DNA of 64,000 nucleotides from assembly GCF_003002915.1 (NCBI RefSeq), contig NZ_PVTG01000001.1, positions 310,001 through 374,000 on the forward strand, read 5' to 3'. The notes beneath the pieces were generated by a model. That model had not been told where the DNA came from. It did no database searches and saw only the letters and a list, made by a program, of their open reading frames with translations. The position numbers and the translations under genes were made by a program. Shown here piece after piece: positions 30,124 to 62,715 of the stretch. This DNA is from Geodermatophilus tzadiensis. GTDB taxonomy: Bacteria > Actinomycetota > Actinomycetes > Mycobacteriales > Geodermatophilaceae. How positions within the stretch are numbered: position 1 is the stretch's first letter; each line of letters starts with the position of its first letter.

Positions 30124-30181
30124 GGCCCCTCCGCAGGGCCCCGCACCGAGCGGCAGCGAGGGGTGGGGGGCGGAGGGTCCT
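30124..30181 (-). repeat. Stop-adjacent covarying hairpin repeat, copy D
   Basis: The outer stem CCCTCCGC/GCGGAGGG encloses a diverged inner part. It ends TCCT 3 bases from the helicase stop codon. Same architecture as the copies at 48160, 56777 and 62658, with the stem changed on both sides. Confidence 0.7.
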
Positions 30182-30184
30182 CCC

Positions 30185-31672
30185 CTAGTCGCGGGCGGAC
30201 GCCGGACGGTCGAACCGCCCGCCTCGCTCGCCCGGGCCGCGGGAGCGGTCGCGCTCACCCGAGGGGCGGCGCGGACGCTCGCCCTCCCGGCGCGGACGCT
30301 CACCGTCGCGCCGGCCACGCTCGCCCTCGCCGTACGGGCGGCGCGGGCGGTCGCCGTCACGGCGCGGACGCCGGCCGCCGGGGCCGCCGTGCGGACGGCG
30401 CGACTCGCGGGCCGGCCGCTCGACCGGCTCCACCGGCACGCCGCTGGCCACGAGCTCGGCGATCGGGGCGTCACCGGGGCGGACGCGGGTGACCTGCGGG
30501 TCGACCTTGGCCTGGCGGAACCGGCGCTTGGCCTGCCCCACCTGGTCGGGCAGCAGCAGGGAGACGACCACACCGGCCGCACCCGCACGGGCGGTGCGCC
30601 CGGAACGGTGCAGGTAGGTCTTGTGGTCGGCCGGCGGGTCGTAGTGCAGGACCAGCGAGACGTCGTCGACGTGGATGCCGCGAGCGGCGACGTCCGTGGC
30701 CACCAGCACCGGGCTGCGGGCGTCGGTGAACGCCTCCAGCGCCCGGCGGCGCGCCGACTGCGGCAGCCCACCGTGGATGGCCTCGGCCTTGATGCCGACC
30801 GCCTGCAGGTTCTCCGTCAGCCGGTCGACCCCGAGCTGCGTGCGCGCGAAGACGATGGTCCGGCCCGGGCGGGCGGCCAGCTCCTGCGTCAGCGGCACCT
30901 TGTCGCGGAAGGCGATGCTGTAGGCCAGGTGCTCGGCAGGCGGGGCGTCGTCGCCGGCCCGCTTCACCTCGTGCCGGGCCGGGTCCTTGAGGTAGCGGCG
31001 GACCAGGGTGTCGACCTCGCCGTCCAGCGTGGCCGAGAACAGCAGCCGCTGGGCGTCGGGGCGGGTCTGGTCGAGCAGCTCCTGCACGACCGGCAGGAAG
31101 CCGAGGTCGGACATGAAGTCCGCCTCGTCGACGACGCTGACCTCGACGTCGGCGAGGCTGGCCTCGCCCTGGCTGATGAGGTCCTGCAACCGGCCGGGGG
31201 TGGCGACGACGACGTCGACGCCGCGGCGCAGCTGCTGGATCTGCCGGTACATCGGGGCACCGCCGTAGACGGTGGCGAACTGGACGCCGGTGGCCTGCCC
31301 GAGCGGCGCCAGGTTGTCGCTGACCTGCTGGGCGAGCTCCCGGGTGGGCACCAGGACGAGCGCCCGCGGGGTGCGGGGGCCGCGGCGGGCGGTGCCGCCC
31401 ATGCGGGCGAGCATCGGCAGGCCGAAGGCGAGGGTCTTGCCCGACCCCGTCGCCGCCTTGCCCAGCACGTCGCGTCCGGCGAGGGCGTCGGGCAGGACGG
31501 TGGCCTGGATGGCGAACGGCGAGTGGATGCCGCGCCGCTCCAGCGCGGTCACCAGCGGCTGGGGCAGTCCCAGCCGGGCGAAGGTGGGGCCGGCGGGTCG
31601 GGGGGCGTTCTCGAGGTCGTGCTGAGGGTCGATCCGGGTGTCGACGGCGTCGACGGGGTCGAACGAGGACAT
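30185..31672 (-). CDS. DEAD-box ATP-dependent RNA helicase
   Basis: A 495-residue two-RecA-domain helicase. Q-motif region FARLGLPQPLVTALERRGI, Walker A AATGSGKT near residue 73, PTRELAQQ, TPGRL, DEAD in VVDEADFMSD, SAT in LLFSATLDG, then the C-terminal HRSGRTARAG arginine-finger motif. After about residue 400 comes an Arg/Gly/Pro/Glu-rich tail with RRPRRDGDRPRR-like repeats, an unstructured RNA-binding tail common in RhlE/CsdA-type proteins. Such enzymes remodel RNA or ribosome precursors, often in cold adaptation. ATG 31672 follows CGGAGT at 13 bases. Confidence 0.93.
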   Translation of the reverse strand: MSSFDPVDAVDTRIDPQHDLENAPRPAGPTFARLGLPQPLVTALERRGIHSPFAIQATVLPDALAGRDVLGKAATGSGKTLAFGLPMLARMGGTARRGPRTPRALVLVPTRELAQQVSDNLAPLGQATGVQFATVYGGAPMYRQIQQLRRGVDVVVATPGRLQDLISQGEASLADVEVSVVDEADFMSDLGFLPVVQELLDQTRPDAQRLLFSATLDGEVDTLVRRYLKDPARHEVKRAGDDAPPAEHLAYSIAFRDKVPLTQELAARPGRTIVFARTQLGVDRLTENLQAVGIKAEAIHGGLPQSARRRALEAFTDARSPVLVATDVAARGIHVDDVSLVLHYDPPADHKTYLHRSGRTARAGAAGVVVSLLLPDQVGQAKRRFRQAKVDPQVTRVRPGDAPIAELVASGVPVEPVERPARESRRPHGGPGGRRPRRDGDRPRRPYGEGERGRRDGERPRREGERPRRPSGERDRSRGPGERGGRFDRPASARD

Positions 31673-31915
31673 GCGGGTGTGGGACTCCGATACAGCTCGG
31701 GCGCGTCCCGTGGTGGTGCGCGGGCGCCACCCCGAAGGCAGGGTCGGCGTCCTCACTGGCGATCGCGGGCGTCGTGGACGCGGCGGATCTGCACGGATGC
31801 GCTCATGCCCGGACGGACCGTCCGGGAGGATGTCCGGCGAGTGCCGGCACACCCAAGGTAGCAGCGGTGATCAGCCGGGGATTCCGGCGAGCACGGTGGC
31901 CGTGGTCACCGCAGG

Positions 31916-32992
31916 TCAGGCGCGCAGTGCCGCGAACCCCGGCCGGACGACGTCGGTGAGCAGCCGCGCCCGCTCGGCGTCGTCGGTGAAGGCCGCGGCC
32001 AGCGCCCGCTCGGTCACCGTCTGCACGTCGTCCCAGCCCCAGCCGTGGGCCGCCGCGACGTCGGCGAGCTCGCTGGTGACCGAGACCCCGCTCATCAGCC
32101 GGTTGTCGGTGTTCACGGTGACCGCGAAGCCGAGCCGGTGCAGCCGGCCCACGGGGTGCCGGTCGATCGAGGGGTAGGCGCCGGTCTGCACGTTCGACGA
32201 CGGCGCGACCTCCAGCGGCACCTGCTCCTCGAGCACCCGCCGCGCCAGCGGCCCGAGCGGGCCCTCCCCCGGGGCCTCGTCGGCGATGCGCACGCCGTGG
32301 CCGAGACGCTCGGCGCGGGCGCCGTCCAGGGCGGCGCGGATGCTGTCGACGCCGGCCGCCTCACCGGCGTGGACGGTGCGGTGCGCCCCGGCGCGGTCGA
32401 GCAGCGCGACGGCCTCCGGGTGCCGGTCGGGCGGGAAGCCGATCTCCGGGCCGGCCAGGTCGAAGCCGACGACGCCGGCGTCGCGGTACCGGACGACGAG
32501 GCCGGCGACCTCCTCCCACCGGTCGGCCTGCCGCATCGCGCACAGCAGCGCGCCCACGGTGATCGGCGTGCCCGCGGCCGCGGCCGCGGAGCTGCCCTGT
32601 GCGAAGCCGTCGAGGATGGCCTCGACGGCCTCCTCGATCGGCGTGCCGCCCGCGGTGAGCAGCTCCGGGGCCATCCGGACCTCGGCGTACACCACGCCGT
32701 CGGCGGCCAGGTCGAGCGCGCACTCGCGGGCCACCCGGCGGACGGCCTCGGGGCGCTGCATCACGCCGACGGTGTGCGCGAAGGTCTCCAGGTAGCGCAC
32801 CAGCGACCCCGAGTCGGCGGCCTGCCGGAACCAGCGGCCCAGCTCGCCGGCGTCGCCCGTGGGCAGGTCGCGGTAGCCGGTCTCCTCGGCCAGTTCGAGC
32901 ACCGTCTGCGGCCGCAGCCCGCCGTCGAGGTGGTCGTGCAGCAGGACCTTGGGGGCGCGGCGGATCGAGTCGGCGTCGAGCGGTGCGGGCAC
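31916..32992 (-). CDS. add: Adenosine deaminase
   Basis: A 358-residue zinc hydrolase converting (deoxy)adenosine to (deoxy)inosine, the substrate of DeoD. Motifs: metal ligands HDHLDGGLRP near residue 18, substrate/metal HAGEAAG near 207, GHGVRIADE near 230, and the SSN plus NTDNRLMSG metal-binding aspartate near 290. It corresponds to M. tuberculosis Rv3313c. GTG 32992 is preceded by a TAGCGT hexamer that contains the stop codon of the ABC permease. The 243-base gap on its 3' side separates it from the helicase and shows nothing further to me. Confidence 0.95.
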   Translation of the reverse strand: MPAPLDADSIRRAPKVLLHDHLDGGLRPQTVLELAEETGYRDLPTGDAGELGRWFRQAADSGSLVRYLETFAHTVGVMQRPEAVRRVARECALDLAADGVVYAEVRMAPELLTAGGTPIEEAVEAILDGFAQGSSAAAAAGTPITVGALLCAMRQADRWEEVAGLVVRYRDAGVVGFDLAGPEIGFPPDRHPEAVALLDRAGAHRTVHAGEAAGVDSIRAALDGARAERLGHGVRIADEAPGEGPLGPLARRVLEEQVPLEVAPSSNVQTGAYPSIDRHPVGRLHRLGFAVTVNTDNRLMSGVSVTSELADVAAAHGWGWDDVQTVTERALAAAFTDDAERARLLTDVVRPGFAALRA

Positions 32993-32998
32993 CCCGAG

Positions 32999-33004
32999 AC
33001 GCTA
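32999..33004 (-). promoter_or_regulatory. Candidate leaderless -10 (TAGCGT) of add, sharing the upstream stop codon
   Basis: The TAG stop of the ABC-2 permease (33004-33002) forms the first three bases of TAGCGT, which ends 6 bases before the add GTG. This gives a leaderless geometry. Confidence 0.5.
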
Positions 33005-33808
33005 TCTGGTGTCGCGGTCCTGCCAGCGGAAGGTCAGGACGCAGAGCACCAGCCCGAGGACGCACCAGGCGCCCAGCACCAGGGCCACCCGGCCGAGCTC
33101 CCAGGAGCCCGCGGGCTCCTGGGCGGCGAGCGCGTCGGGCAGGAACACCGAGCGCAGCCCCTGGGCCAGCCATTTCACCGGGAAGACGGCGGCGACGTCC
33201 TGCAGCCAGCCGGGCACCTGGTCGAAGGGCAGGAAGACGCCGGAGACGAACTCCAGCACCAGCGCGATGGGGGTGACCGTGGCCGAGGCCGACCGGCCGG
33301 TGCGGCACAGCGTCGAGACGGCGATCCCCAGCAGCGTGCAGGCCGCGGCGCCGAGCACGGACACCCAGGCGAAGGTGAGCCAGTCGGCGGCGGAGGGCAG
33401 GTCGATGCCGTACACGAGCACGCCGACGCCGAGCAGCAGCGCGATCGTGGCCACCGCGACGGCGAGCACCTGCACGACCTTGCCGGCGAAGTAGGCGCTG
33501 GCCGGCATCGGTGTCCCGGCCAGGCTCTTGAGGGTGCCGTCGGAGCGCTCCCCGGCGATGTGGATCGCCATGTTCTGCAGGCTGGCGCCCACGATGCCGG
33601 CGGTGACCACCCCGGCCATGAAGTACTGCGGGAAGTCGACGCCGGCGCCGAGGTCGTAGTCGAGCACCGCGCCCAGCGCGAGCAGCAGGATCACCGGGAA
33701 GGCGAGGGTGAACACCACCGACTCGCGCTGCCGGAAGAACTCCCTGAGCTCGACCCGCGCCCGGGTGCCGTAGACGCGGGCCAGCGAGGGCAGGGCGGGG
33801 GCGGTCAC
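33002..33808 (-). CDS. ABC-2 type transporter permease
   Basis: A 268-residue membrane protein with six hydrophobic segments in the ABC-2 exporter layout. A basic cytosolic start (RVELREFFRQRESV) precedes helix 1; the long central loop carries SDGTLKSLAGTPMPAS, and a late FLPFDQVPGWLQDVAAVFPVKW motif is typical of drug or lipid exporters. Its GTG overlaps the stop of the ATPase gene (GTGA), so the two form one exporter. The substrate is unknown. It lies between add and deoA, breaking an otherwise salvage-only run. Confidence 0.9.
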   Translation of the reverse strand: MTAPALPSLARVYGTRARVELREFFRQRESVVFTLAFPVILLLALGAVLDYDLGAGVDFPQYFMAGVVTAGIVGASLQNMAIHIAGERSDGTLKSLAGTPMPASAYFAGKVVQVLAVAVATIALLLGVGVLVYGIDLPSAADWLTFAWVSVLGAAACTLLGIAVSTLCRTGRSASATVTPIALVLEFVSGVFLPFDQVPGWLQDVAAVFPVKWLAQGLRSVFLPDALAAQEPAGSWELGRVALVLGAWCVLGLVLCVLTFRWQDRDTR

Positions 33809-34713
33809 TGACCCGATCCCCCGATCATCTTCAGGTAGACGTCCTCCAGCGTGGGCCGGCTGACCGCCAGGTCGGGCACCTCGCCGGGGAAGCGGGCGGC
33901 CAGGTCGCGGACGAACGCGGTCGGGGTCGTCGTCTCGGCGGTCCGCCGGACGCCGTCCTCGGTCCAGCTGACCACGGCCGGCGCCGAGCCGCGCCCGCCC
34001 AGCGCCGTGGGGACGGCGACCTCGGCCAGCTGCCCGCGGGCGAGGACGCCGACCCGGTCGGCCAGCGTCTCGGCCTCGTCGAGGTAGTGGGTGGTGAGCA
34101 GCATCGTGGTGCCCAGGTCGCGCAGCGAGCGGATCAGCGCCCAGAACTGCCGCCGGGCCTCGGGGTCGAAGCCGGTCGTCGGCTCGTCGAGGAACAGCAG
34201 CCGGGGCCGGCCGACGATGCCCAGCGCGACGTCGAGCCGGCGACGCTGGCCGCCCGACAGCGTGCGTCCGCGCGCGCCGGCCTTCTCGGTGAGGCCCACC
34301 AGCTCGAGCACCTCTCCGGGGTCGCGCGGGTCGGCGTAGTAGGAGGCCCGGGCCTCGAGCAGCTCGCGCACCGACAGCTGGCTGTCCCCCGCGCCGGACT
34401 GCAGCACGATGCCGAGCTCGGCCTTCCACCGGCGCCCGCCCCGGGCCGGGTCGACGCCGAGCACCCGCACCTCGCCGCCGTCGCGCCGGCGGTAGCCCTC
34501 GAGCACCTCGACGGTGGTGGTCTTGCCGGCGCCGTTGGGCCCGAGCAGGGCGAAGATCTCGCCGCGGCGGATGTCGAGGTCGAGCCCGTCGACGGCGGTC
34601 CGGTCGCCGTAGCGCTTGACCAGGCCGCGCACGGAGATCGCGGCGTCCGGGTCGAGCGGGGCACCGGGCCGCGGTCGGCCGTCGGCCGCCACGGCCGCAG
34701 ACGTTCGGGTCAC
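33805..34713 (-). CDS. ABC transporter ATP-binding protein (ABC-2 exporter)
   Basis: About 302 residues. Walker A GPNGAGKTTT near residue 54, signature LSGGQRRRLDVALG near 149, Walker B RLLFLDEPTTG near 170 and the switch His in TTHYLDEAE near 202. A C-terminal regulatory domain of about 80 residues follows. GTG 34713 (VTRTSAAV) is preferred, with GGAGGGG upstream; GTG 34737 would add 8 residues. It couples to the downstream permease. The family exports drugs, lipids or polysaccharides; no substrate can be named. Confidence 0.9.
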   Translation of the reverse strand: MTRTSAAVAADGRPRPGAPLDPDAAISVRGLVKRYGDRTAVDGLDLDIRRGEIFALLGPNGAGKTTTVEVLEGYRRRDGGEVRVLGVDPARGGRRWKAELGIVLQSGAGDSQLSVRELLEARASYYADPRDPGEVLELVGLTEKAGARGRTLSGGQRRRLDVALGIVGRPRLLFLDEPTTGFDPEARRQFWALIRSLRDLGTTMLLTTHYLDEAETLADRVGVLARGQLAEVAVPTALGGRGSAPAVVSWTEDGVRRTAETTTPTAFVRDLAARFPGEVPDLAVSRPTLEDVYLKMIGGSGQ

Positions 34714-34726
34714 GAGGACACAGTGT

Positions 34727-34764
34727 CCCCTCCGCACCCGGCGGTGGGAGGCGGGAGGGTCCCC
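34727..34764 (-). repeat. Degenerate copy E of the stop-adjacent hairpin repeat
   Basis: CCCCTCCGC ... GCGGGAGGG keeps the outer arms with one bulge and the trailing GGGTCC next to the deoA stop at 34765, but lacks the inner hairpin. It also sits just upstream of the ABC ATPase start. Confidence 0.4.
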
Positions 34765-36045
34765 TCAGGCGTCCGTGACGCGCTCCAGCACCAGGGGCAG
34801 CGGCTCGTCCGCGGTGCCGACGCCGACCGCGCCCTCCAGCGCCTCCAGCGCCCGCGGGATGCGGCCGGCGTCGTCGGTCTGCAGCTCCAGCAGAGGCTGG
34901 CCCTCGGTGACCCGCTCCCCCACGGTCGCCGTCCAGGTGATGCCGGCCGCGGCCGACACCGGGTCCTCCTTGCGCGCCCGCCCGGCACCGAGCCGCCAGG
35001 TGGCCACCCCGAGGGCGTAGGCGTCCAGGCGGGTCAGCGTGCCGGTGGCCGGGGCGGTCACCACGTGCCGCTCGGCCGGCTGCGGCAGCGGCGCGTCCGG
35101 GTCGCCGCCCTGCGCGGTGACCATCCGCCGCCACACGTCCATCGCCCGGCCGTCGCGCAGTGCGTCCGCCGGGTCGACGTCGTCGCGCCCGACGCCGGCG
35201 AGCATCTCCCGGGCCAGCGCGAGGGTCAGCTCCACCAGGTCGGCCGGGCCGCCCCCGGCCAGCACCTCCACCGACTCGGCCACCTCGACGGCGTTGCCGG
35301 CGGCGCGGCCCAGCGGCCGGTCCATCGCCGTCACCAGGGCCACCGTGCGGACCCCGGCCGCCTCACCGAGGCCGACCATCGTGCGGGCCAGCTCGCGGGA
35401 GGACGCCGGGTCCTTCATGAAGGCGCCCGACCCCGTCTTGACGTCGAGCACCAGCGCGTCGGCGCCCTCGGCGATCTTCTTGCTCATGATCGAGCTGGCG
35501 ATCAGCGGGATCGACTCGACGGTGCCGGTGACGTCGCGCAGCGCGTAGAGCTTCTTGTCCGCCGGCGCCAGGTCGTGCCCGGCCGCGCAGATCACCGCGC
35601 CCACCTCGCGCAGCTGCGCCAGGTAGGCCTCCTCGTGCACGTCGGCCCGCCAGCCGGGGATCGACTCGAGCTTGTCCAGCGTGCCGCCGGTGTGGCCCAG
35701 CCCGCGGCCCGACAGCTGCGGCACCGCCACCCCGCACGCGGCCACCAGCGGTGCCAGCGGCAGCGTCGTCTTGTCGCCCACCCCGCCGGTGGAGTGCTTG
35801 TCGGCGGTCGGCCGGCCCAGCGAGGAGAGGTCCTTGCGCTCGCCGGAGTCGATCATCGCCTGGGTCCAGGCAGCGAGCTCCCCGGGCGCCATGCCGCGGA
35901 AGAACACCGCCATGAGCAGCGCGCTGACCTGCTCGTCGGGCACCACCCCGCGGGTGTGGGCGTCGATCAGCCAGCGGATCTGCTCGGCGCTGAGCTGCCC
36001 GCCGTCGCGCTTGGTGCGGATGACGTCGATCGCGTCGAAGGTCAC
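34765..36045 (-). CDS. deoA: Thymidine phosphorylase
   Basis: A 426-residue pyrimidine nucleoside phosphorylase giving thymine and deoxyribose-1-phosphate. The N-terminal VIRTKRDGGQLS and the phosphate-binding KHSTGGVGDKTTL near residue 82 are family signatures, followed by SGRGLGHTGGTLDKLESIPG and TGSGAFM (pyrimidine site). The C-terminal domain is complete. GTG 36045 overlaps the cdd stop (GTGA). With cdd it converts deoxycytidine-derived nucleosides towards pmmB and deoC. It corresponds to M. tuberculosis Rv3314c. Confidence 0.96.
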   Translation of the reverse strand: MTFDAIDVIRTKRDGGQLSAEQIRWLIDAHTRGVVPDEQVSALLMAVFFRGMAPGELAAWTQAMIDSGERKDLSSLGRPTADKHSTGGVGDKTTLPLAPLVAACGVAVPQLSGRGLGHTGGTLDKLESIPGWRADVHEEAYLAQLREVGAVICAAGHDLAPADKKLYALRDVTGTVESIPLIASSIMSKKIAEGADALVLDVKTGSGAFMKDPASSRELARTMVGLGEAAGVRTVALVTAMDRPLGRAAGNAVEVAESVEVLAGGGPADLVELTLALAREMLAGVGRDDVDPADALRDGRAMDVWRRMVTAQGGDPDAPLPQPAERHVVTAPATGTLTRLDAYALGVATWRLGAGRARKEDPVSAAAGITWTATVGERVTEGQPLLELQTDDAGRIPRALEALEGAVGVGTADEPLPLVLERVTDA

Positions 36046-36470
36046 CGGCCGGCCCTCCCCAGGTCGTCGGGGCCGAACGCGTCGGGCAGCACCTCGCGCA
36101 TCGGCACGATGCCCAGCGACACGGTCTCGATGAGCGTGTCCGGGCCGCCGTGCTCCCAGAGCAGCTGCCGGCACCGCCCGCAGGGCATCAGCGGCCGGCC
36201 CGCGCCGTCGACGCAGGCCACCGCGACCAGCCGGCCGCCGCCGGTGCGGGCGAGGTCGCTGACCATCCCGCACTCGGCGCACAGCCCCAGCCCGTACGAG
36301 GCGTTCTCGACGTTGCAGCCGGTGACCACCCGGCCGTCGTCGACCAGGCCGGCCACGCCCACCGCGAAGCCGGAGTACGGCGCGTAGGCGTGCGTCATCG
36401 CCTCCCGGGCGGCGCCGCGCAGCGCCGCCCAGTCCACGTCGTCCACCCGCCCCACCACCCCGTCCGCCAC
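36042..36470 (-). CDS. cdd: Cytidine deaminase
   Basis: A 142-residue zinc enzyme deaminating cytidine and deoxycytidine. The substrate motif CNVENASYGLGLCAE (Cys-Ala-Glu, zinc ligand plus catalytic Glu) is near residue 53, and MPCGRCRQ supplies the other two zinc cysteines. This is the small tetrameric type. GTG 36470 follows GAGGAGAG at 5 bases and overlaps the TAG of the ABC permease by one base, tying nucleoside uptake to deamination. It corresponds to Rv3315c. Confidence 0.95.
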   Translation of the reverse strand: MADGVVGRVDDVDWAALRGAAREAMTHAYAPYSGFAVGVAGLVDDGRVVTGCNVENASYGLGLCAECGMVSDLARTGGGRLVAVACVDGAGRPLMPCGRCRQLLWEHGGPDTLIETVSLGIVPMREVLPDAFGPDDLGRAGR

Positions 36471-44383: not shown

Positions 44384-48157
<3,774 letters not shown>

Positions 48158-48159
48158 GC

Positions 48160-48217
48160 GGCCCCTCTGCAGGGGCCCGCCGCGAGCGTGCGAGCGGTGG
48201 GGGGCAGAGGGGTCCTT
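48160..48217 (-). repeat. Stop-adjacent covarying hairpin repeat, copy A
   Basis: The outer stem CCCCTCTGC/GCAGAGGGG is 9 bp and perfect. The inner stem CCCGCCGC/GCGGTGGG has one G-U wobble, around GAGCGTGCGA. It ends TCCTT 3 bases from the CNNM-gene stop and begins 2 bases after the galE stop. Confidence 0.8.
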
Positions 48218-48220
48218 CCG

Positions 48221-49537
48221 CTATGCCTCGGGGTCGGCGACGGCGGGCTCGGGGTCGGCGGCGCGGGTGACGGCGAGGCGGGCGATCCGCCGTCCGTCGA
48301 GCTCGACGACGGTGAGCGTGCGCCCCTCGGCCTCCACGGCGTCGCCCACCTCGGGCAGCCGGCCGAGCTCGGCGAGCACGTACCCGGCGACGGTCTCGTA
48401 GGGCCCCTCGGGCAGCCGCAGGCCGGTGGCCTCGGCGAAGTCGTCGAGGTTGAGCAGCCCGTCGAGCTCCTGCGGCCCGCCGGGCACCTCGCCGTCCTCC
48501 GCGGCGACCTCCTCGTCGTACTCGTCGTAGATCTCCCCGATGACCTCCTCGATGAGGTCCTCGAGGGTGACGATGCCGTCGGTGCCGCCGTACTCGTCGA
48601 CGACGATCGCCAGGTGCTGGTTCTCCCGGCGCATCTCCGACAGGGCGGTCAGCACGCCGGCGGTGCCGGGCAGCCGCTTCACCTCGCGGGCGAGGTCGCC
48701 GACGGTCGCCGCGCGGCCGGCCGGGTGGGTCGGCAGCAGCAGGTCGCGCACGTGCACGAAGCCGACGACGTCGTCCTGGTCGCGGCCGGCCACCGGGTAG
48801 CGCGACCAGTTGGAGTCGGCGACCTGGCGGGCGGCCCGGCTGACCGTGGTGGAGGCCTCGAGGAACTCCACCTCGGTGCGCGGGGTCATCACCTCGCGCA
48901 CCTCGCGGTCGCCGGCGCGGAACACCTCGTCGATGAGCCGGCGCTCGTCGCTGCTCAGCGACTCGTGCGCGGCGACCAGGTCGCGCAGCTCCTCCTGGCT
49001 GATCGCCTCGCCGCTGGCCTTCGGGTCGCCGCCGAGCAGGCGTACCAGCACGTTCGTCGACGCCGACAGCAGCCAGATGACCGGGCGGGAGAGCCGGGCG
49101 ATGGCGTTCAGCGGCCGGGCGACGAGCAGCGAGAAGCCCTCGGCGCGCTGCAGCGCCAGCCGCTTGGGCGTCAGCTCGCCGACCACCAGCGAGAGGTAGC
49201 TGATGGCGATGGTGACCAGGACGAAGGCCAGCGTGCCGGCGAGGCCCTCCCGCAGTCCCCGCTGCACCAGCCAGTCGGCGAACGGCTGCGACAGGGTGCT
49301 GGCCCCGAACGCCGCGGAGAAGAAGCCGGCCAGCGTCACCCCGACCTGCACCGCGGACAGAAAGCGGTTGGGGTCGCTGAGCAGGCGCTGCACGGCCCGC
49401 CCGCGGCGGCCGCGCTCGGCCAGCGTCCGGACCTGCGACTCCCGCAGGGAGACCAGTGCGATCTCCGCGCCGGCGAAGAAGCCGCCGACCAGGACGAAGA
49501 CGACGACCATGACGGCGTCGAGCCAGACGTCGCTCAC
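48221..49537 (-). CDS. CNNM/CorC-type transporter-associated protein (hemolysin family)
   Basis: A 438-residue protein with three parts: an N-terminal DUF21/CNNM membrane domain of about four helices (first helix VWLDAVMVVVFVLVGGFF, with the GELTPKRLA segment near residue 136), a tandem CBS pair (about residues 210-335) and a C-terminal CorC/HlyC domain (about 350-430). Such proteins are linked to Mg or other divalent-cation efflux. GTG 49537 is used, with AGGAG 10 bases upstream; the longer reading lacks a natural start before the first helix. Confidence 0.9.
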   Translation of the reverse strand: MSDVWLDAVMVVVFVLVGGFFAGAEIALVSLRESQVRTLAERGRRGRAVQRLLSDPNRFLSAVQVGVTLAGFFSAAFGASTLSQPFADWLVQRGLREGLAGTLAFVLVTIAISYLSLVVGELTPKRLALQRAEGFSLLVARPLNAIARLSRPVIWLLSASTNVLVRLLGGDPKASGEAISQEELRDLVAAHESLSSDERRLIDEVFRAGDREVREVMTPRTEVEFLEASTTVSRAARQVADSNWSRYPVAGRDQDDVVGFVHVRDLLLPTHPAGRAATVGDLAREVKRLPGTAGVLTALSEMRRENQHLAIVVDEYGGTDGIVTLEDLIEEVIGEIYDEYDEEVAAEDGEVPGGPQELDGLLNLDDFAEATGLRLPEGPYETVAGYVLAELGRLPEVGDAVEAEGRTLTVVELDGRRIARLAVTRAADPEPAVADPEA

Positions 49538-53210: not shown

Positions 53211-53230
53211 AGTCGGTCACAGGCCGGCCC

Positions 53231-54184: not shown

Positions 54185-54191
54185 GCGCGTC

Positions 54192-54197: not shown

Positions 54198-54244
54198 GCC
54201 CCGCGGTCCAGGGCGCGCGCTCCGCGGTCGGCCGCACGGCGCCG

Positions 54245-54538
54245 TCACGGGACCGCCAGGGTCAGCGCCGTCAGCAGGACGCCGGTCGCCGCCATGAGGA
54301 CGACGTCGACCGGCCGGCTGCGGACGGCGAGGAAGCCGACCCGGCGCAGCGGCAGGACCAGCCGCAGTCCCGCGGCCGCGACGAGCGCCAGCCCGACGAC
54401 GAGCAGCCCGCGCCGCCAGTGCTCCAGCGCGACCATCGCCAGCCCCACGCCGACCGCCACCAGCACCGCGAGCAGCGGCAGCTGGCGCAGCACGCCGGCC
54501 AGGAAGGGCCGGCGCGTGTAGAGCGGCGGGCGGCTCAC
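54245..54538 (-). CDS. DUF3017 small membrane protein
   Basis: A 97-residue protein with three hydrophobic helices ([40 protein letters not shown] and [18 protein letters not shown]). Proteins of this size and layout follow folD in many actinobacteria and are annotated DUF3017; function unknown. GTG 54538 overlaps the folD stop (GTGA). Confidence 0.82.
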
Positions 54539-55404: not shown

Positions 55405-55497
55405 CCCGACAGTGTGCCGGAGGCGGCCCCGGGGCAGCCCTCCCGGCCCTACCCTCGCAGCCGAGTCCTCCCGCACCGCGGCCCGCCAGGAGAGCAA

Positions 55498-56112
55498 ATG
55501 ACCGAGCGCGACCCGTCCTCCGGCCAGGTCGGCGCCGGCGAGCAGCGCGACTGGCGGGAGCAGACGACGCCCGGCCTGTCCCCGGCGGCGACCGGCGGGT
55601 ACGGCTCCCCCGGTACGGGCGAGAACCCCTACCTGACGCCGGACCGCTCCACCGAGCCGGTCGCCGTCCGCGGGCCGGACTCCCTGGGCGGCCTGCTGTG
55701 CCTGCTGGCCGGGATCGCGGCCGCGGTGAGCCTGGCGCTGAGCTGGCTGCGCGAGCCGGGCGACATCGGGTGGGACCTCGTCGTCCGCGGCTTCGACGAG
55801 TTCGGGAGCGGGTTCGGGACCCTGGTCGACTCCGGGTTCTGGCAGCCGCTGGCCGTCGTCCTCGGTGGCGGCGTGCTGCTGCTCCTGGGCCTGCTGATGT
55901 GGCTGCCGGCGCGCACGCACCGCTTCCTGGGCGTGGTGGCGCTGTTCGTCAGCCTGCTCGCGCTGGCCGCGGTGCTGGTGCCGCTGGCCTCCGAGGAGTG
56001 GGACCCCGCCGCGTTCCGGCTGGGCTTCTGGTTCGCCTGCGCCGTCAGCGTCCTGGGCCTGCTCGGCGCGCTCAAGGCCATGCTCACCGGCCGGCGGTAC
56101 GCCCGGCGCTGA
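55498..56112 (+). CDS. Four-helix membrane protein of unknown function
   Basis: A 204-residue protein. About 60 polar, low-complexity N-terminal residues (Gly/Thr/Pro-rich, probably cytosolic) precede four helices: [57 protein letters not shown] and [17 protein letters not shown] 55498 is preceded by AGGAGAG at 3 bases, a strong site. Family not recognised. It is the only plus-strand gene in the last 10 kb, between folD and the pentapeptide-repeat gene. Confidence 0.85.
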
Positions 56113-56124
56113 GCGGCCGGGCGC

Positions 56125-56760
56125 TCAGCCGTCGACGACGGCGCCGTGCGCGAGGGCGACCTGCACCGCCTGGCCGACGTCCAGGCGGACGCCGGTGAGC
56201 TCGATCGCCCGCCACGCCAGCGCCTCGGTGCGCGCGCCGCGCAGGTCGCTGCCCCGCAGCCGGGTGCCGCGCTGCACGCGGGCGCGGTCGAGGTCGGCGC
56301 CGGTGAGGTCGCACTCGCGCAGGTCGGCGTCGGTGAGGTCGGCCTCGCGGAACCGCTGGCCGGACAGGTCGCTGCCGGAGAGGTCCACGCCGCGCAGCGA
56401 GGTCCAGCTCCAGTCGGAGTCGGTGGTGGTCAGCGGCCGCAGCACCGCGCCGGGGAACTGCGAGCCGGTGAGCTTGCAGCCCTCCCACACCGCGTCGAAG
56501 AGCCGGGCCCGGTCGAAGCGGCAGGACAGGAACGCGCTCCCCCGGTGCCGCGAGCCGCTCAGCCGCACGCCGGTGAGCACACAGGAGTCGAACACGCAGC
56601 GCCGGGTGACCAGCTCGGTGAGGTCGGCGTCGTCGAAGCGGCAGCGGGTGAAGGTGACGTCCTCCAGCTCGGCGCCCCACCAGTCGACCCGCGCGAGGTC
56701 GGCGCCGACCAGCTCGGCGCCGACCTCGGGCGGCTGGACGTGTGGTCGGGCGTTGCGCAC
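56125..56760 (-). CDS. Pentapeptide-repeat protein
   Basis: A 211-residue protein built of A(D/N)LXX pentapeptides, for example GADLARVDWW, FDDADLTEL, the run SGSDLSGQRFREADLTDADL and the continuing ADL/ECDL units to near residue 165. These form a right-handed quadrilateral beta-helix; some members mimic DNA and protect gyrase (MfpA-like), most have no known role. Two Cys-rich units (RRCVFDSC and LSCRF) are noted. GTG 56760 is used. It lies downstream of purH, whose stop-adjacent repeat sits between them. Confidence 0.88.
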   Translation of the reverse strand: MRNARPHVQPPEVGAELVGADLARVDWWGAELEDVTFTRCRFDDADLTELVTRRCVFDSCVLTGVRLSGSRHRGSAFLSCRFDRARLFDAVWEGCKLTGSQFPGAVLRPLTTTDSDWSWTSLRGVDLSGSDLSGQRFREADLTDADLRECDLTGADLDRARVQRGTRLRGSDLRGARTEALAWRAIELTGVRLDVGQAVQVALAHGAVVDG

Positions 56761-56776
56761 CTGCGCAGGCTACGGC

Positions 56777-56833
56777 GGCCCCGCTGCAGGGTCCCGCCGC
56801 GAGCGTGCGAGCGGTGGGGGCAGCGGGGTCCTT
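56777..56833 (-). repeat. Stop-adjacent covarying hairpin repeat, copy B
   Basis: The outer stem CCCCGCTGC/GCAGCGGGG differs from copy A on both arms; the inner stem and loop are identical to A. It ends TCCTT 2 bases from the purH stop. Confidence 0.8.
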
Positions 56834-56835
56834 CC

Positions 56836-58389
56836 TCAGTGGGCGAAGTGGCGGGTGCCGGTGAGGTAGAGCGGGACGCCGGCCGCGCGCGCCGCGGCGA
56901 CGACCTCCTCGTCACGCACCGACCCGCCCGGCTGCACCACCGCCCGCACCCCGGCGTCGAGCAGCACCTGCAGTCCGTCGGCGAACGGGAAGAACGCGTC
57001 GGACGCGGCCACCGACCCCGCGGCCCGCTCCCCCGCCCGGGCTACCGCCAGCCGGGCCGAGTCGACCCGGTTCACCTGGCCCATGCCGACGCCGACGGTG
57101 GCCTTGTCGTGGGCCAGCAGGATGGCGTTGCTCTTCACCGCGCGCACCGAGCGCCAGGCGAACACCAGGTCGTCGAGGCCGGCGGCGTCCACCGGCTCCC
57201 CGCAGGCCAGCGTCCAGGTGGTGGGGTCGTCGCCGTCGGCGTCGATGCGGTCGGCGCTCTGCAGCAGCAGCCCGCCGCTCACGGGGCGCAGCTCGACCGG
57301 GGGCCGGCCGGCATCGGGCAGCCGCAGCAGCCGGATGTTCTTCTTCGCCGTCAGCACCTCGACGGCGTCCCGGGTGAACGAGGGGGCCACGACCACCTCG
57401 GTGAACACGCCGGCCACCTGCTCGGCCATCGCCAGGTCGACCTCGCGGTTGGCCGCGATCACCCCGCCGAAGGCCGACACCGGGTCGCAGGCGTGCGCCT
57501 TGCGGTGGGCGGCGGCGATGTCGGTGCCGACGGCGATGCCGCAGGGGTTGGCGTGCTTGATGATCGCCACGCAGGGGTCGTCGTGGTCGTGCGCGGCCCG
57601 CCAGGCGGCGTCGGTGTCGACGTAGTTGTTGTAGGACATCTGCTTGCCGTGCAGCTGCTCGGCGTGTGCCAGCCCCGGCTCGCCGCCGCGGTAGAGCGCC
57701 GCCCGCTGGTGCGGGTTCTCCCCGTAGCGCAGCACGTCGGCGCGCTCCCAGCTCGCGGCCACCCACGTGGGGAAGCCCGAGTCGTCGTCGGGCGCGAGGA
57801 CGTTGCCCATCCACGAGGCGACGGCGATGTCGTAGGAGGCGGTATGCCGGAAGGCCGCGGCCGCCAGCGACCGCCGCTGCTCGAGGGTGAAGCCGCCCGC
57901 GGCGACCGCGGCCAGCACCTCGCCGTAGCGGGCCGGGTCGACGACGACGGCGACCGACGGGTGGTTCTTCGCGGCGGCGCGCACCATCGCCGGGCCGCCG
58001 ATGTCGATCTGCTCGACGCACTCGTCGGGCGACGCGCCCGAGGCCACGGTCTCGGGGAACGGGTAGAGGTTGACCACCACGAGGTCGAAGGCGGCGATGC
58101 CGAGCTCGTCGAGCTGCCGCACGTGCTCCCCGCGGCGCCGGTCGGCGAGGATGCCGGCGTGCACCGCGGGGTGCAGCGTCTTGACCCGCCCGTCGAGGCA
58201 CTCGGGGAAGCCGGTGACCTGCTCGACCGGCGTCACCGGCACGCCGGCGTCGGCGATCCGGCGGGCGGTGGCGCCGGTGCTGACCAGCTCGACGCCGGCG
58301 TCGGCCAGGCCGCGGGCGAGCTCCTCGATGCCGGCCTTGTCGTAGACACCCAGCAGGGCACGGCGCACCGGGGTCCGGGTCTCGGTCAT
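56836..58389 (-). CDS. purH: Bifunctional AICAR formyltransferase/IMP cyclohydrolase
   Basis: A 517-residue enzyme for the last two steps of IMP synthesis. The N-terminal MGS-like cyclohydrolase domain has [19 protein letters not shown] and [16 protein letters not shown]. The C-terminal formyltransferase domain has [12 protein letters not shown] near residue 210, the KHANPCG motif near 260 and the closing [10 protein letters not shown] and GGSVRDEEV segments. ATG 58389 overlaps the purN stop (ATGA) and has GGAGGAG 9 bases upstream. It uses 10-formyl-THF from folD. Confidence 0.97.
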
Positions 58390-58994
58390 CGGGGGCTCTC
58401 CTCCGTCGTCCCGGTGACGAGTCGCGCCACCGTCTCCACCAGGAGCGTGCGCTCCACGGCCTTGATGCGTTCGTGCAGGTGCTCCTCGTCGTCGCCGGGG
58501 AGCACCGCGACCTCGCGCTGCGCCAGCACCGGCCCGGTGTCCACACCGGCGTCGACCAGGTGCACGGTGCTGCCGGTGACCTCGACCCCGGCGGCGAGCG
58601 CGTCGCGGACGGCGTGCGCGCCGGGGAAGGCCGGCAGCAGCGCCGGGTGGGTGTTGACCAGGCGGCCCTCGTAGCGGGCCAGGACGGCGGGACCGACGAT
58701 CCTCATGAACCCGGCCGAGACCACCCAGTCGGGCGCGTGCGCGGCGATCGCCCCGGCCAGCGCGGCGTCCCAGGCGGCCCGGTCGGGGAAGTCGCGCAGG
58801 GCGACGGTGAACGTCGGCACGCCGCGGCGGCGGGCGTGCGCGAGGCCCGGTGCATCGCGGTCGGCGCCGACGGCGACCACCTCGACCGGGTAGCCGGGGT
58901 CCTCGGCGGCCTCGAGCAGCGCGGCGCACAGCGAGCCGGCGCCCGAGAGCAGGACGACGACCCGCGCCCGCGGGGTCGGGGCGGCGGCGGGCAC
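58386..58994 (-). CDS. purN: Phosphoribosylglycinamide formyltransferase
   Basis: A 202-residue enzyme formylating GAR with 10-formyl-THF. The phosphate loop LLSGAGSL is near residue 15, the catalytic Asn/His [12 protein letters not shown] near 109, and the aspartate of [13 protein letters not shown] near 140. GTG 58994 is chosen because TAGGGT ends 7 bases upstream. Its end overlaps purH (ATGA). The purN-purH order is that of M. tuberculosis Rv0956-Rv0957. Confidence 0.96.
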
Positions 58995-59001
58995 GACCGC
59001 G

Positions 59002-59007
59002 ACCCTA
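59002..59007 (-). promoter_or_regulatory. Candidate leaderless -10 (TAGGGT) of purN
   Basis: On the minus strand TAGGGT is followed by CGCGGTC and the GTG at 58994. It is 19 bases before the DUF6350 stop, so the gene can be transcribed on its own. Confidence 0.45.
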
Positions 59008-59025
59008 GACGGGGCCGCCGCCGGC

Positions 59026-60222
59026 TCAGCCGAGGGACCGCCAGCGGGCGACGGCGGCGGCCACCGCGGCGGCGATACCGGCCTGGGCGCCGACCGACAG
59101 CGCCGTGGCCACCGGCGGCGCGCCGACGTCGGCGAGGGCGCCGTTCCCCAGCGCGCCGCCGGCCACGGCGACGACCACACCCGAGGCGAGCCCCAGCAGC
59201 ACCCCGGTGAGCACACCCCAGAGGCCGGCGACCACCGAGCCGCCGTCGTCGGCGGCGAGGCGGCGGCCCAGCGTGGTGCCGGCGACCAGGCCCGCCAGCG
59301 CCGGCACCACCTGCGAGACGAACGCCAGCAGGGGCACGGCCTGGGTGTCGGGCAGCGCGGCGAGCAGCGGCAGCGCGGGCACCGGGCCGAGGGTCACGCC
59401 GTGCACCGAGACGACGGTCGCGGTGCCGATCGAGAAGCCGGGGCCGGCCGCCACCCCGAGCGCGGCGGCGGCGGCGTTGGGCAGCAGCAGCGCGCCGAGC
59501 GCGAGCAACCCGACCGCGCCGGCGCCCGAGCCGCCCAGCGTGCGGGAGACGGCGGCGTACCCGGCGGCGTCGGCGGCCACCGCGACCGCGACGACCACCA
59601 GCCCGAGGCCGAGGGCGGTGAGCAGGCCGGTGAGCACCGCGGGCGGCACGGCGCGGGCCGGGCCGGGCAGCCGGCCGGCCGCGGTGCCGGGCAGGTCGCT
59701 CTCGCGCAGCACGCCCCAGCAGGCGGCGACGGCGGCCAGCGCCGCCGGCCCGACGGCGCAGCGGAGCACGTCGGTGCCCGCGCCCGGGCCGTCGACCGCC
59801 AGCGCGAGCAGCACGCAGAGCAGCACGTGGACGGCGACGACGGCCGCCACGACGCCGGCGGCCCCACGCGCGTCCTCGGGCCCGGCCACGCGCGTCACCC
59901 CGCGCGCGGCGCGGGAGAGCCCCCACGCGACGGCGAGGGTGAGCAGCAGCGGCGCGAGCACCAGCGGCCCCGACGGCAGCTCCAGCCCGCCGAACTGGGC
60001 GAGCAGCCACAGCTGCCCGGCCACCCGCGCCGACCCGCCGACCGGCAGGCCGCCGGAGGGGTCGAGGGTCTGCACCACGACGACGGCCAGGCCCAGGCCG
60101 ACGAGGCCCAGCACGCCGACCGCGAGGGTGGCGGCGGCCGCGAGCGCGACGGGGTACCAGGGCCGGCGGGCGTCGGGGTCGGCCTGCCCGGGCAGGGGCA
60201 GGCGCGCCAGCAGGGAGACCAC
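59026..60222 (-). CDS. DUF6350 family polytopic membrane protein
   Basis: A 398-residue protein with about nine to ten hydrophobic helices and no catalytic motif. It matches the DUF6350 gene that precedes purN in M. tuberculosis (Rv0955). The long loops are glycine/alanine-rich and the C-terminus ends ARWRSLG. GTG 60222 is used, with GAGAGT 6 bases upstream as a possible weak -10; a longer reading to 60264 has no site. Function unknown; cell-division or stress roles are only suggested by location. Confidence 0.82.
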   Translation of the reverse strand: MVSLLARLPLPGQADPDARRPWYPVALAAAATLAVGVLGLVGLGLAVVVVQTLDPSGGLPVGGSARVAGQLWLLAQFGGLELPSGPLVLAPLLLTLAVAWGLSRAARGVTRVAGPEDARGAAGVVAAVVAVHVLLCVLLALAVDGPGAGTDVLRCAVGPAALAAVAACWGVLRESDLPGTAAGRLPGPARAVPPAVLTGLLTALGLGLVVVAVAVAADAAGYAAVSRTLGGSGAGAVGLLALGALLLPNAAAAALGVAAGPGFSIGTATVVSVHGVTLGPVPALPLLAALPDTQAVPLLAFVSQVVPALAGLVAGTTLGRRLAADDGGSVVAGLWGVLTGVLLGLASGVVVAVAGGALGNGALADVGAPPVATALSVGAQAGIAAAVAAAVARWRSLG

Positions 60223-60309
60223 GTCCCCACTCTCGCAAGCCCGGCCACCGGATGGGCGGCGCACGCGCCGGGGCGGCTCCCCGGCCCGCGTCGGGCCGTC
60301 GTCGTCAGG

Positions 60310-61527
60310 TCAGGACGGACCCTGGCCCGAGGCGCTGGAGCCGCCGTGCCGGCCGGGGTGCTCGGCACCCGGGTCGGTGACCGGCGGCGGATCCGGCTGC
60401 CCGTACGGCGGTTGCTCGTACTGGGCCTGCTCGTACTGGGGCTGCTCGTACTGGGGCTGCTCGTACTGGGGCTGCTCGTACTGGGGCTGCTCGTACTGGG
60501 GCTGCTCGTACTGGGGCTGCTCGTACTGCTGGCCGTAGCCGGGCTGCCCGTAGGGGATCTGCCCGTACGGCGGCTGCCCGTGGTGCTGGCCGTAGCCGGG
60601 CTGCTCGTAGCCGGGCTGGCTGTAGCCGGGCTGGCCGTAGCCGGGCTGGCCGTACTGCTGGCCGTACTGCTGGCCGTACTGCTGGCCGTACTGCTGGCCG
60701 TGGCCGGGTGGGCCGTAGGGCTGCTGGCCCCAGGGCTGACCGGGAACGCCGCCGGACCCGGTCGACTGCCCGACCCCGGGGTGCCCCGACCGGCCGGGGT
60801 CCGGCGCCTGTCGGCCGGCCCACTGCGCGGCACCGGCGAGGCCGCCGGGCAGGGTGGGGCGGTCGCGCAGCTCGGGCAGCAGCCGCAGCACGGCGAACAC
60901 CGTGACGGCTGCGGCGACCAGCAGCGCGAGCAGCCCGATGACGGAGAACTCGAGCGTGAGGGCCTGGAGCCAGGCGACGAGCGTGAGCAGCGCGGCCAGG
61001 CCGGCGAGACCGACGGTGACCCAGCTGCGCGGGAAGCCCAGCCGCAGCTCGACGACGGCCGGGAGCAGCGCCCACCCCGCGGCGAACAGCAGCAGCACGA
61101 CGCTGAACGGCACCAGGCCGCTGACGTCGAACCCGCTGAAGGTGTAGCTCACCGTCGGCACGTCGAAGCCGGGGATGCCGAAGTCGTCGCTGGAGAAGGT
61201 GACCCACGGCAGCAGCGCCAGCACCAGGTAGAGCAGGGCACCCGCGGCGACGACGAGGTCGGCGACCTGGAGTCGCTTGACGTCGACGCCGGCGCCGGGC
61301 GGGCGTCCGGGGCCGATCGGGGGCTGCTGGCCGAGGGGGGCGCCGTACGGCTGCTGACCCCAGCCCGGTCCCGGTGCCTGCTGCTGGGCCTGAGGTTCCT
61401 GGGCGTACGGATGCCGGTCCGGAGCGGGCTGACCCGGCTGCGGCCGGCCGTACGGGGAGGCGGGAGGCTGCCCGTGTCCCGGCTGCCCGGGCACCCCGGG
61501 CTGCTGGGGCGGCTGACTGGACCCCAT
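60310..61527 (-). CDS. DUF5336-like membrane protein with repetitive QYEQP tail
   Basis: A 405-residue protein. The N-terminal 90 residues are Pro/Gln/Gly-rich. Four helices (about residues 91-230) form the membrane core, with [20 protein letters not shown] between the first and second. The C-terminal 170 residues carry QQYG units and eight YEQ-containing units, mostly QYEQP, encoded by 15-bp tandem repeats. The order sucD, this gene, DUF6350, purN follows M. tuberculosis Rv0952-Rv0956. ATG 61527 follows GGGAG at 8 bases. Function unknown. Confidence 0.82.
60411..60533 (-). repeat. 15-bp coding tandem repeat (QYEQP units)
   Basis: Eight near-identical 15-base units on the minus strand encoding QYEQP or QYEQA, within the tail of the DUF5336-like gene. 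Identical codons suggest recent slippage. Confidence 0.75.
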
Positions 61528-61688
61528 GCGTGGACTCCCTCTCGTCACATCGGCCAGGCGCGGGTGCTCCTGCCCTCGGGGACCGGCAGCAACCACGCCA
61601 CACCCTCCTCCCCGGCCCGGGCGGGAATCGCGGTGGCCTGGTCGGACACCGGCCGCCTGCCGGGCGCGACCACCGCCGCGTACGCGCA

Positions 61689-61733
61689 GGGGGCGCCCGC
61701 CAGGTCCGTCGTGCGGACCAGGCGGGCACCCCC
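61689..61733. terminator. Long hairpin downstream of sucD
   Basis: GGGGG-GCCCGCC-GGTCCG on the left pairs with CGGACC-GGCGGGC-CCCCC on the right around TCGTG, with two single mismatches. It sits 17 bases past the sucD stop. Confidence 0.75.
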
Positions 61734-61749
61734 CGGAGCGGTCGCGGAC

Positions 61750-62628
61750 TCAGGCGCCGACGAGCTCCCGCATGAGGCGGGCGGTCTCCGACGGGGTCTT
61801 GCCCACGCGGACGCCGGCGGCCTCGAGGGCCTCCTTCTTGGCCTGCGCGGTGCCGGCCGAGCCGGACACGATGGCGCCGGCGTGGCCCATCGTCTTGCCC
61901 TCGGGCGCGGTGAACCCGGCGACGTAGCCGACGACCGGCTTGGTCACGTTGGCCCTGATGAAGTCGGCGGCCCGCTCCTCGGCGTCGCCGCCGATCTCGC
62001 CGATCATCACGATGGCCTCGGTCTCCGGGTCCTCCTGGAAGGCCTGGAGCGCGTCGATGTGCGTGGTGCCGATGACCGGGTCGCCGCCGATGCCGATGGC
62101 GGTGGAGAAGCCGATGTCCCGGAGCTCGTACATCATCTGGTAGGTCAGCGTCCCGGACTTGCTGACCAGGCCGATCCTGCCCTGCTGGGTGATGTTGGCC
62201 GGGATGATGCCGGCGTTGGAGCGCCCGGGGCTGATCAGGCCCGGGCAGTTCGGGCCGATGATCCGGGTGGCGCCGCCCTGGGCGTGCGCCCAGAAGTAGG
62301 TCGAGTCGTGCACCGGGATGCCCTCGGTGATGACGACGGCCAGCCCGATCTGGGCGTCGACGGCCTCGATGACCGCGCCCTTGGCGCCGGCCGGCGGCAC
62401 GAAGATGACGCTGACGTCGGCGCCGGTCTCCTTCATCGCCTCGGACACGCTGCCGAAGACCGGGACGCTGGCGCCCTCGAAGTCGACGTCCGTGCCGGCC
62501 TTCTTCGGGTTGACACCGCCGACGATGGCCGTGCCGGAGGCGAGCATGCGCTGGGTGTGCTTGCGCCCCTCCGAGCCGGTCATGCCCTGGACGATGACCT
62601 TGCTGTTCTCGTTGAGGAAGATCGACAT
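61750..62628 (-). CDS. sucD: Succinate-CoA ligase alpha subunit
   Basis: A 292-residue CoA-binding subunit. The Rossmann-like [14 protein letters not shown] is near residue 15, [13 protein letters not shown] near 122, and the phosphorylated active-site His in [17 protein letters not shown] near 245. With SucC it converts succinyl-CoA to succinate with ATP or GTP formation, downstream of the mutase encoded by mutAB. A stop-adjacent hairpin repeat separates it from sucC, so the two subunits may be adjusted post-transcriptionally. Confidence 0.97.
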
Positions 62629-62657
62629 CTCTTCGGGTCCTGTCTGGAGAGGCGGGC

Positions 62658-62715
62658 GGCCCCCTTCCAGGGGCCCGCCGCGAGCCTGCGAGTGGTGGGG
62701 AGGAAGGGGGTCCTT
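62658..62715 (-). repeat. Stop-adjacent covarying hairpin repeat, copy C
   Basis: The outer stem CCCCCTTCC/GGAAGGGGG differs from copy A at several paired positions, and the inner stem keeps pairing through G-U wobbles. It ends TCCTT 2 bases from the sucC stop and lies 29 bases before the sucD start. Confidence 0.8.

Follow-up and report, generated by a model that had tools for sequence, protein, structure and literature searches.

Post-stop hairpins in the window

The DNA analysed here is a stretch of 64,000 bases from Geodermatophilus tzadiensis (contig NZ_PVTG01000001.1, positions 310,001 to 374,000), hereafter the window, in which four copies of a hairpin-forming repeat, an element of 62–80 bases, stand directly behind stop codons of minus-strand genes (Table 1). 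The genes upstream of copies A to D encode a DEAD-box helicase, a CNNM/CorC protein, PurH and SucC, which agrees with a preliminary description of this DNA. The four hairpins reported there were each re-read in the window and each scored by a covariance model, all on the minus strand and with expectation values (E) of 1e-10 to 1e-17; the four are themselves among the 33 sequences from which that model was built.

Table 1. Copies of the repeat in the window and features adjoining them (bit scores and E from the covariance model)
Feature	Position	Strand	Remarks
Copy A	30122..30184	-	57.5 bits; behind TAG stop of DEAD-box helicase gene (30185-31672, -)
Copy A, outer stem			CCCTCCGC/GCGGAGGG
Copy A, 3' tail	30108..30121	-	CCCAGCACCTCACC; kind common to other copies
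Terminator-like hairpin 3' of copy A	30073..30109	.	16 bp; overlaps end of tail by 2 bases
Possible degenerate copy	34723..34766	-	13.2 bits, E = 1.1; behind stop of pyrimidine nucleoside phosphorylase gene
Copy B	48158..48219	-	88.4 bits; between galE-like gene (47201-48157, +) and CNNM gene (48221-49537, -)
Copy C	56775..56835	-	79.4 bits; behind TGA stop of purH (56836-58389, -)
Copy D	62656..62717	-	80.2 bits; between sucC (62718-63878, -) and sucD (61750-62628, -)

Copy B is in contact with stop codons at both ends, since the TAG of the CNNM gene adjoins one end and the TGA of the convergent gene (galE-like by eye) abuts the right end. Copy C has purH upstream and a pentapeptide-repeat gene (56125–56760, minus strand) as its next downstream neighbour. 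The TCCTT or TCCT that had been noted 2–3 nucleotides (nt) from the stop is present in all four copies, but the shorter form belongs to the copy at 30124 and not to copy D; likewise the inner stem described for copies A to C is there, but copy D follows the same inner-stem plan. When single sequences were folded, copies A to C did better than shuffles (z -1.8 to -3.2) and copy D did not (z 0.03). A fifth, degenerate copy had also been proposed at 34727–34764. It does lie behind the pyrimidine nucleoside phosphorylase stop, but its membership in the family is unsupported: its score is that of Table 1 and its folding gains nothing over shuffles (z -0.57). By eye, no family element stands directly behind the orthologous stop in the congeneric genomes G015 and G080; in G015 one stands about 130 nt beyond it. 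The candidate may be an internally deleted copy, at an E of 1.1 that gives this no statistical support.

Copy number and taxonomic range

The 33 sequences behind the covariance model are 29 loci of the G. tzadiensis genome plus the four copies from the window, two of the latter being present in both sets; their mRNA-strand consensus is nGAAGGACCCCnCTGCCCCCCACCGCTCGCAnGCTCGCGGCGGGCCCCTGCAGnGGGGCCGn. With this model at least 151 matches were found in the same genome at E ≤ 0.01, and blastn with copy B gave 50 at E ≤ 1. Unselected sequence from this genome, namely 863,265 bases made up of the window and 40 stretches, holds 38 copies at E ≤ 1e-3 (about 44 per Mb), and at the same threshold two congeneric species have 47 copies in 355 kb (G015) and 36 in 320 kb (G080). 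The set of 121 copies used below comes from these three genomes; outside it stand seven matches from G. tzadiensis with E of 0.011–0.96 and six from G015 and G080 with E of 0.0039–0.085.

A search with a covariance model had been proposed in the preliminary description, and it reveals a family dispersed through its own genome and most genomes of the Geodermatophilaceae: 101 of 112 family genomes, from nine of 12 genera, contain a match at E ≤ 1e-7. Surveys of family, order and class were run with stricter filters than the own-genome search, and under these filters no match appeared in 16 genomes of the same order outside the family (E ≤ 1e-3) or in 295 sampled genomes of the class outside the family (E ≤ 1e-5). 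Copy number differs among close relatives. Within genus g18 it runs from 0 (G041) through 2 and 3 to at least 48; G041 and G069 have no match, and G047, G057 and G061 have 3, 2 and 7, while congeners reach at least 48. The remaining nine match-free family genomes all belong to genera g21–g23. The purH locus was matched in the named relatives Blastococcus, Geodermatophilus chilensis and two Modestobacter. At this locus the element is present in G. chilensis and M. lapidis and absent from Blastococcus sp. DSM 44205 and Modestobacter sp. VKM Ac-2985.

Plasmid and phage collections yielded no copy by blastn, viral contigs none by one exact pattern, and the window no match to the curated Rfam models at their gathering scores. 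Short-motif searches of the window with three mismatches allowed gave fewer matches than shuffled sequence and are useless alone. No description of the repeat, for Geodermatophilaceae or otherwise, was found in literature that included few subscription journals; one Geodermatophilaceae genome paper mentions, in the accessible portion of its text, only clustered regularly interspaced short palindromic repeats (PMC9686282). Five consecutive matches with a 63-base period occur at G000:C9:94062–94375 (loci L004 and L037).

Paired changes in the stems

Both arms of the stems had been said to change together, and this is borne out. Among the 33 copies 92.4% of cells are paired, and 35 cells are changed on both sides; shuffles give 7.6 and slid controls no more than 4. 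The 121 copies, in an alignment that was fitted to the model and is hence biased towards it, give 91.5% paired cells and 319 both-sided changes, compared with 109 in shuffles and at most 38 in slid controls. The paired fraction is 96% in the outer stem and 86% in the inner one. An alternative 3' hairpin, GGCCCC/GGGGCC, was rejected since its covariation is no greater than in shuffles. Some copies, copy A included, are extended by a tail of about 16 nt of the GTTCCAGCACGTCACC type, which matches with at most four edits in 33 of 121 copies, some of these matches being loose or due to an older copy beside it; elsewhere, at one other site, the tail falls within the stretch that is absent from empty orthologues. 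Some copies also have imperfect inverted ends, GGAAGGACC ... GGCCGTTCC. At the purH 3' end of G005 (L214) there is a row of 3' half-elements ending in a GTTCCAGCACGTCACC-type tail.

Covariation had been taken to mean that RNA or cruciform pairing is under selection; the covariation is real, but alone it does not prove selection for RNA pairing. Among undirected comparisons of orthologous sites, 31 pairs have a recognised copy on both sides, and their outer stems show 40 two-sided differences that are still paired, four one-sided differences that are still paired, 16 one-sided differences that break pairing and four two-sided differences that are unpaired. These differences often come as blocks of paired changes, a pattern that replacement or renewed insertion fits better than slow compensation. 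Since orthologous sites often carry another, equally paired variant, the covariation is explained at least as well by replacement, by gene conversion or by a need for a palindrome in mobility as by selection for RNA pairing. Paired changes might also arise from mutation bias, and not from selection on pairing, in a repeat of mostly dead copies; quasipalindrome template switching and ectopic gene conversion are candidate biases. The excess of two-sided over one-sided paired differences (40 against four), their frequent arrangement in blocks, and the nested copies described below speak for such a bias, but repeated insertion of different variants fits these data too, and the position at stop codons is left unexplained. 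We consider mutation bias rather unlikely; it is in any case compatible with the explanation that we favour below and does not exclude it.

Placement relative to stop codons

Genes were called with a simple codon-usage caller, using a lower score limit for placement counts (it missed, for example, the gene ending at 48157). The near-constant distance to the stop that had been claimed from the window holds across the larger set: in 81 of 121 copies the GGACC anchor lies -1 to +10 nt from the end of an upstream co-oriented gene, while random intergenic positions and orientations, a null that leaves out purifying selection against other positions, put 3.5% at a gene stop. For G. tzadiensis alone the figure is 30 of 38 copies. 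Spacing among the 81 is exactly 4 in 42 cases, -1 to 3 in 31, 5 in five and larger in three. The stops concerned are TGA in 59, TAG in 18 and TAA in four, compared with 1091, 164 and 24 for genes overall. At spacing 4 the stop is part of CTGA in 39 of 42 copies versus 643 of 1279 gene stops (p about 3e-9, p-values here being rough because the copies are related).

The same preference can be seen without reference to gene calls. A stop trinucleotide occurs at spacing 0–5 in 91 of 121 copies, while the next windows have one in 6, 4 and 2 of 121; even among the copies away from a called gene stop there is one in 15 of 40 versus 2, 3 and 2. The 95 stop-type tetranucleotides at spacing 0–5 are CTGA (47), CTAG (14), GTGA (11), GTAG (8) and others (15). 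Stop-codon proximity thus looks like a DNA target preference for CTGA/CTAG, as judged from these letter counts, and the placement rule is one that concerns DNA letters as much as translation. The link to translation termination that had been suggested is possible.

The rule has exceptions. Forty of 121 copies are not at a called gene stop, seven of 121 lie inside a called gene, and 25 of the 120 with a left neighbour stand behind the start of an opposite-strand gene. In 32 of 121 the copy lies between convergent gene ends; as raw counts with no null, the right end is within 10 nt of an opposite-strand stop in nine of 48 and exactly 2 nt from it in five. A co-oriented start follows within 40 nt in 13 of the 79 stop-adjacent copies with a right neighbour, and some copies are therefore intercistronic. 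In G015 (L247:19780–19880 on G015:C8) the galE-like gene beside the copy-B site appears by eye to read through a family element, which would add a new C-terminal tail; in G. tzadiensis the element stands behind the stop and in the opposite orientation. At the purH 3' end of the same genome (L192) TGATG is kept and its ATG precedes the element, by eye in the reading frame of the pentapeptide gene, for which the element could supply a translated N-terminal extension. A different long palindrome, perhaps an unrelated post-stop repeat, lies directly behind the purH TAG stop in an Acidothermales metagenome-assembled genome (L118).

Chance GC-rich repeats, with neither compensatory changes nor a preferred distance to stops, had been named as the outcome that would overturn the preliminary description. 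Chance would fit the degenerate copy at 34727 alone and has nothing left for the four copies; it is refuted by the copy number in a single genome and by covariation and position, both far above their controls, and we give it practically no credence.

Occupied and empty orthologous sites

Three sites were compared across 26 genomes of the genus, G. tzadiensis included. At the sucC–sucD site (copy D) the element is present in 11 of 26 (nine in the same orientation and two reversed), and 15 have no match. At the purH site (copy C) it is present in 18 of 26; L212 has an element further down, and of the seven without a match one (L206) holds a remnant by eye. At the third site, for which one of the comparisons covered 22 of the 26, it is present in 15 of 26 and absent in 11. 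Empty orthologues at the compared sites keep the same or another stop, and the stop there is therefore the target and not the product of the element; the empty purH site reads TGATG in several genomes of the genus. On a quick tree of the 26 genomes, made from four gene pieces and with some weak forks, the three sites require no fewer than 6, 8 and 7 state changes. The nearest relatives of G. tzadiensis (G006, G002 and G023) are without copies C and D.

Directed comparisons gave 54 'empty' records, meaning a gap at least 40 nt shorter, and 99 'occupied' ones; some 'empty' records still hold another copy or a remnant, and they do not amount to 54 clean empty sites. By eye, newer copies are nested in older ones in either orientation. 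In L300, L289, L224 and L090:16604 the nested copies lie near the middle of the older ones, whose inner hairpin seems to have lost a part, as though by replacement. Flanking k-mers reveal no clear target duplication: the numbers shared by the two flanks, compared with shuffle means, are 94 against 87.6 for k = 4, 9 against 10.0 for k = 6, 4 against 2.8 for k = 7 and 2 against 0.5 (maximum 4) for k = 8, so that 6- to 8-mers are not raised, and very short duplications are possible.

A functional mRNA element, kept by selection behind stops in order to stall terminating ribosomes or to protect upstream mRNA, as has been described for repetitive extragenic palindromic sequences (REPs) of E. coli, would account for the precise position, for a stable covarying hairpin and for copies between co-oriented genes such as sucC–sucD. 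In the available part of one report, E. coli REPs less than 16 nt from a stop are said to lower translation, and those within 15 nt to stall ribosomes (PMC12306157), and by analogy the copies described here stand where an effect on translation would be possible. But the same gene does without the element in 7, 15 and 11 of the 26 genus genomes at the three sites, G041 and G069 have no match though their congeners are rich in copies, the CTGA bias at one spacing is a rule of DNA sequence rather than of translation, and the stop trinucleotide is enriched where no gene stop was called. We regard selection for an mRNA function as an unlikely reason for the placement.

Relation to transcription terminators

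Intrinsic terminators made alike by gene conversion would also be GC-rich hairpins behind stops, and 32 of the 121 copies lie between convergent gene ends. However, TTTT is missing from the 20 nt downstream of every one of the 121 copies. Among stop-adjacent copies followed by at least 60 nt, a second hairpin of at least 12 bp occurs within 90 nt in 17 of 46, versus 160 of 511 element-free gene ends (about 4–5% in base-shuffled sequence, which keeps base content only). Several of these downstream terminator-like hairpins are common to orthologues without the element (four records); the one beside copy A, for example, occurs also in G080 with no recognised element there. Since copy D separates sucC from sucD and separate hairpins are as frequent beside the element as elsewhere, the element is not simply a terminator, and its confinement to one family in the samples searched also counts against the idea. 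The terminator role was accordingly rejected on the missing U tract and the equal frequency of separate hairpins with and without the element, and we think converted terminators very improbable. A general role in mRNA 3'-end formation, which had been suggested for the hairpins, is not supported, on the same counts and in view of the copies inside operons such as sucC–sucD.

A probable mobile element that may target stop codons

Our preferred explanation is that the element is probably a REP-like miniature mobile palindrome of the Geodermatophilaceae that also resembles the mycobacterial interspersed repetitive units (MIRUs). Dispersal, polymorphic occupancy of orthologous sites, nesting and variable copy number all favour the mobile REP-like alternative that had been offered in the preliminary description; insertion, as opposed to loss or recombination alone, is what we infer from them. 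The mobile unit would comprise the covarying outer stem and the inner stem, with the tail added in at most about a quarter of copies. Its insertion point would lie a few bases 3' of a tetranucleotide of the CTGA/CTAG type, which, where genes are densely packed, would most often be the stop codon of a gene; one orientation would be preferred, and no clear target duplication would be left. It would land between a stop codon and the native terminator, or between the genes of an operon, presumably at places that are transcribed. The stems would stay paired either because the spreading machinery may act on the folded palindrome, as single-strand or hairpin DNA, or because one copy may replace another; either would explain the pairing, and an RNA function would therefore not be needed. 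As a more specific and tentative proposal, which we hold to be possible but somewhat doubtful, the element would seek stop codons in fixed orientation, 3' of CTGA/CTAG and with no clear target duplication, by means of an enzyme other than a Y1 transposase of the REP-associated tyrosine transposase (RAYT) or IS200 type.

A number of observations weigh against mobility of this kind. The changes on the tree cannot separate gain from loss or from recombination between lineages, and the variant at copy D is common to G015 and G014, which are distant on the tree, and not to the sister species of G. tzadiensis, so that recombination between lineages is possible. The empty TGATG state at purH in sister genomes could be a deletion. 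The exact ends of the element are not fixed, because occupied and empty sites often differ in flanking bases, and the two flanks share slightly more 5-mers (45) than shuffles do on average (mean 34.5, maximum 47). TAG and TAA together make up 22 of 81 stops, above their 15% share of gene stops, and a strict TGA rule fails. Y1_Tnp (PF01797) was found neither in the G. tzadiensis genome nor in any of 108 family genomes, though five of 14 control genomes matched; mobilisation by a RAYT was rejected on this ground. A search for an IS91-type Y2_Tnp, in the G. tzadiensis genome only, carries no weight as no control genome matched. No full-size parent element was recognised. Sixteen pairs of half-elements lie wide apart, at 84–3653 bp, in 1.54 Mb.

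If the element is mobile as proposed, hugging stop codons would give it access to gene junctions in a dense genome while leaving genes and terminators intact. It would be a large palindromic repeat spread across most of a single bacterial family, with a stop-codon/CTGA placement of unusual sharpness and no known mobilising enzyme, and its hundreds of natural placements could be used to map target choice. It would also caution against reading strong covariation behind stop codons as proof of a terminator or a regulatory RNA. Finally, with copies in core metabolism (sucC–sucD, purH), effects on translation termination and mRNA stability are directly testable.

Comparison with known systems

Terminators, REPs, miniature inverted-repeat transposable elements (MITEs) and MIRUs each share some features with the element. 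Intrinsic terminators are likewise GC-rich hairpins behind genes, but here there is no U tract, one sequence is shared, and at several loci the element lies upstream of another terminator-like hairpin. REPs are described, in the portions available of two papers, as dispersed high-copy palindromes that lie for the most part between genes in convergent or co-directional arrangement, in many cases less than 20 bp from the upstream 3' end, with sub-families that differ by alternative complementary stem bases, a GTAG end that often supplies a TAG stop, some copies inside genes, and CGTC REPs without a dedicated transposase (PMC3733652, PMC2817692). The element resembles both the GTAG and the CGTC super-family in dispersal, closeness to gene 3' ends, variant stems and some intragenic copies; as with GTAG REPs it is a high-copy and mostly extragenic palindrome, and, as for CGTC REPs, no dedicated transposase was found for it. 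However, REPs are 20–40 bp long and carry a GTAG or CGTC tag, while the element has 62–80 nt and no conserved GTAG or CGTC tag, its neighbour being CTGA, CTAG, GTGA or GTAG. No conserved GTAG (GYAG/GTRG) end was seen among the 95 tetranucleotides. CGTC REPs are marked by CGTC at one end, a stem of 8–9 bp and a loop of 4–5 nt, and the 33-copy consensus shows neither the end tag nor the short loop. The GTAG end of REPs often supplies the stop, whereas here the stop pre-exists in empty orthologues at the compared sites; GTAG REPs go with a Y1/RAYT transposase, of which the 108 family genomes have none; and the element, unlike REPs, was found in one taxonomic family. Lacking a conserved tag and a Y1 transposase, it does not belong to the GTAG REPs, and it is classed here as a new REP/MIRU-like variant.

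MITEs and other small mobile sequences, as far as the accessible text of one source goes (PMC2229807), are similarly small and dispersed, and some copies of the element have imperfect inverted ends as they do; here, though, there is no clear target duplication and no parent insertion sequence was recognised. The window also holds tandem repeats at 60362–60736, mostly of 15 bases, inside the called gene 60310–61494 (minus strand), which by eye read as PQYEQ-like units.

The MIRUs of Mycobacterium, reportedly studied by Supply et al. in 1997, are by analogy the nearest actinobacterial parallel. The part of a source available to us has them inserting at start codons, with an open reading frame coupled at -4 spacing (PMC12548453). 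A start within 10 nt was found in one of the 69 copies with a co-oriented downstream gene, coupled reading frames not having been searched systematically. Presence and absence at orthologous sites amount to 6–8 changes on the tree, in which gain is not separated from loss or recombination. Both are short actinobacterial repeats, apparently mobile, that occupy gene junctions, and the empty purH site is a TGATG; but MIRUs are tied to start codons, whereas the Geodermatophilaceae element is strongly palindromic and keeps its position relative to the upstream stop.

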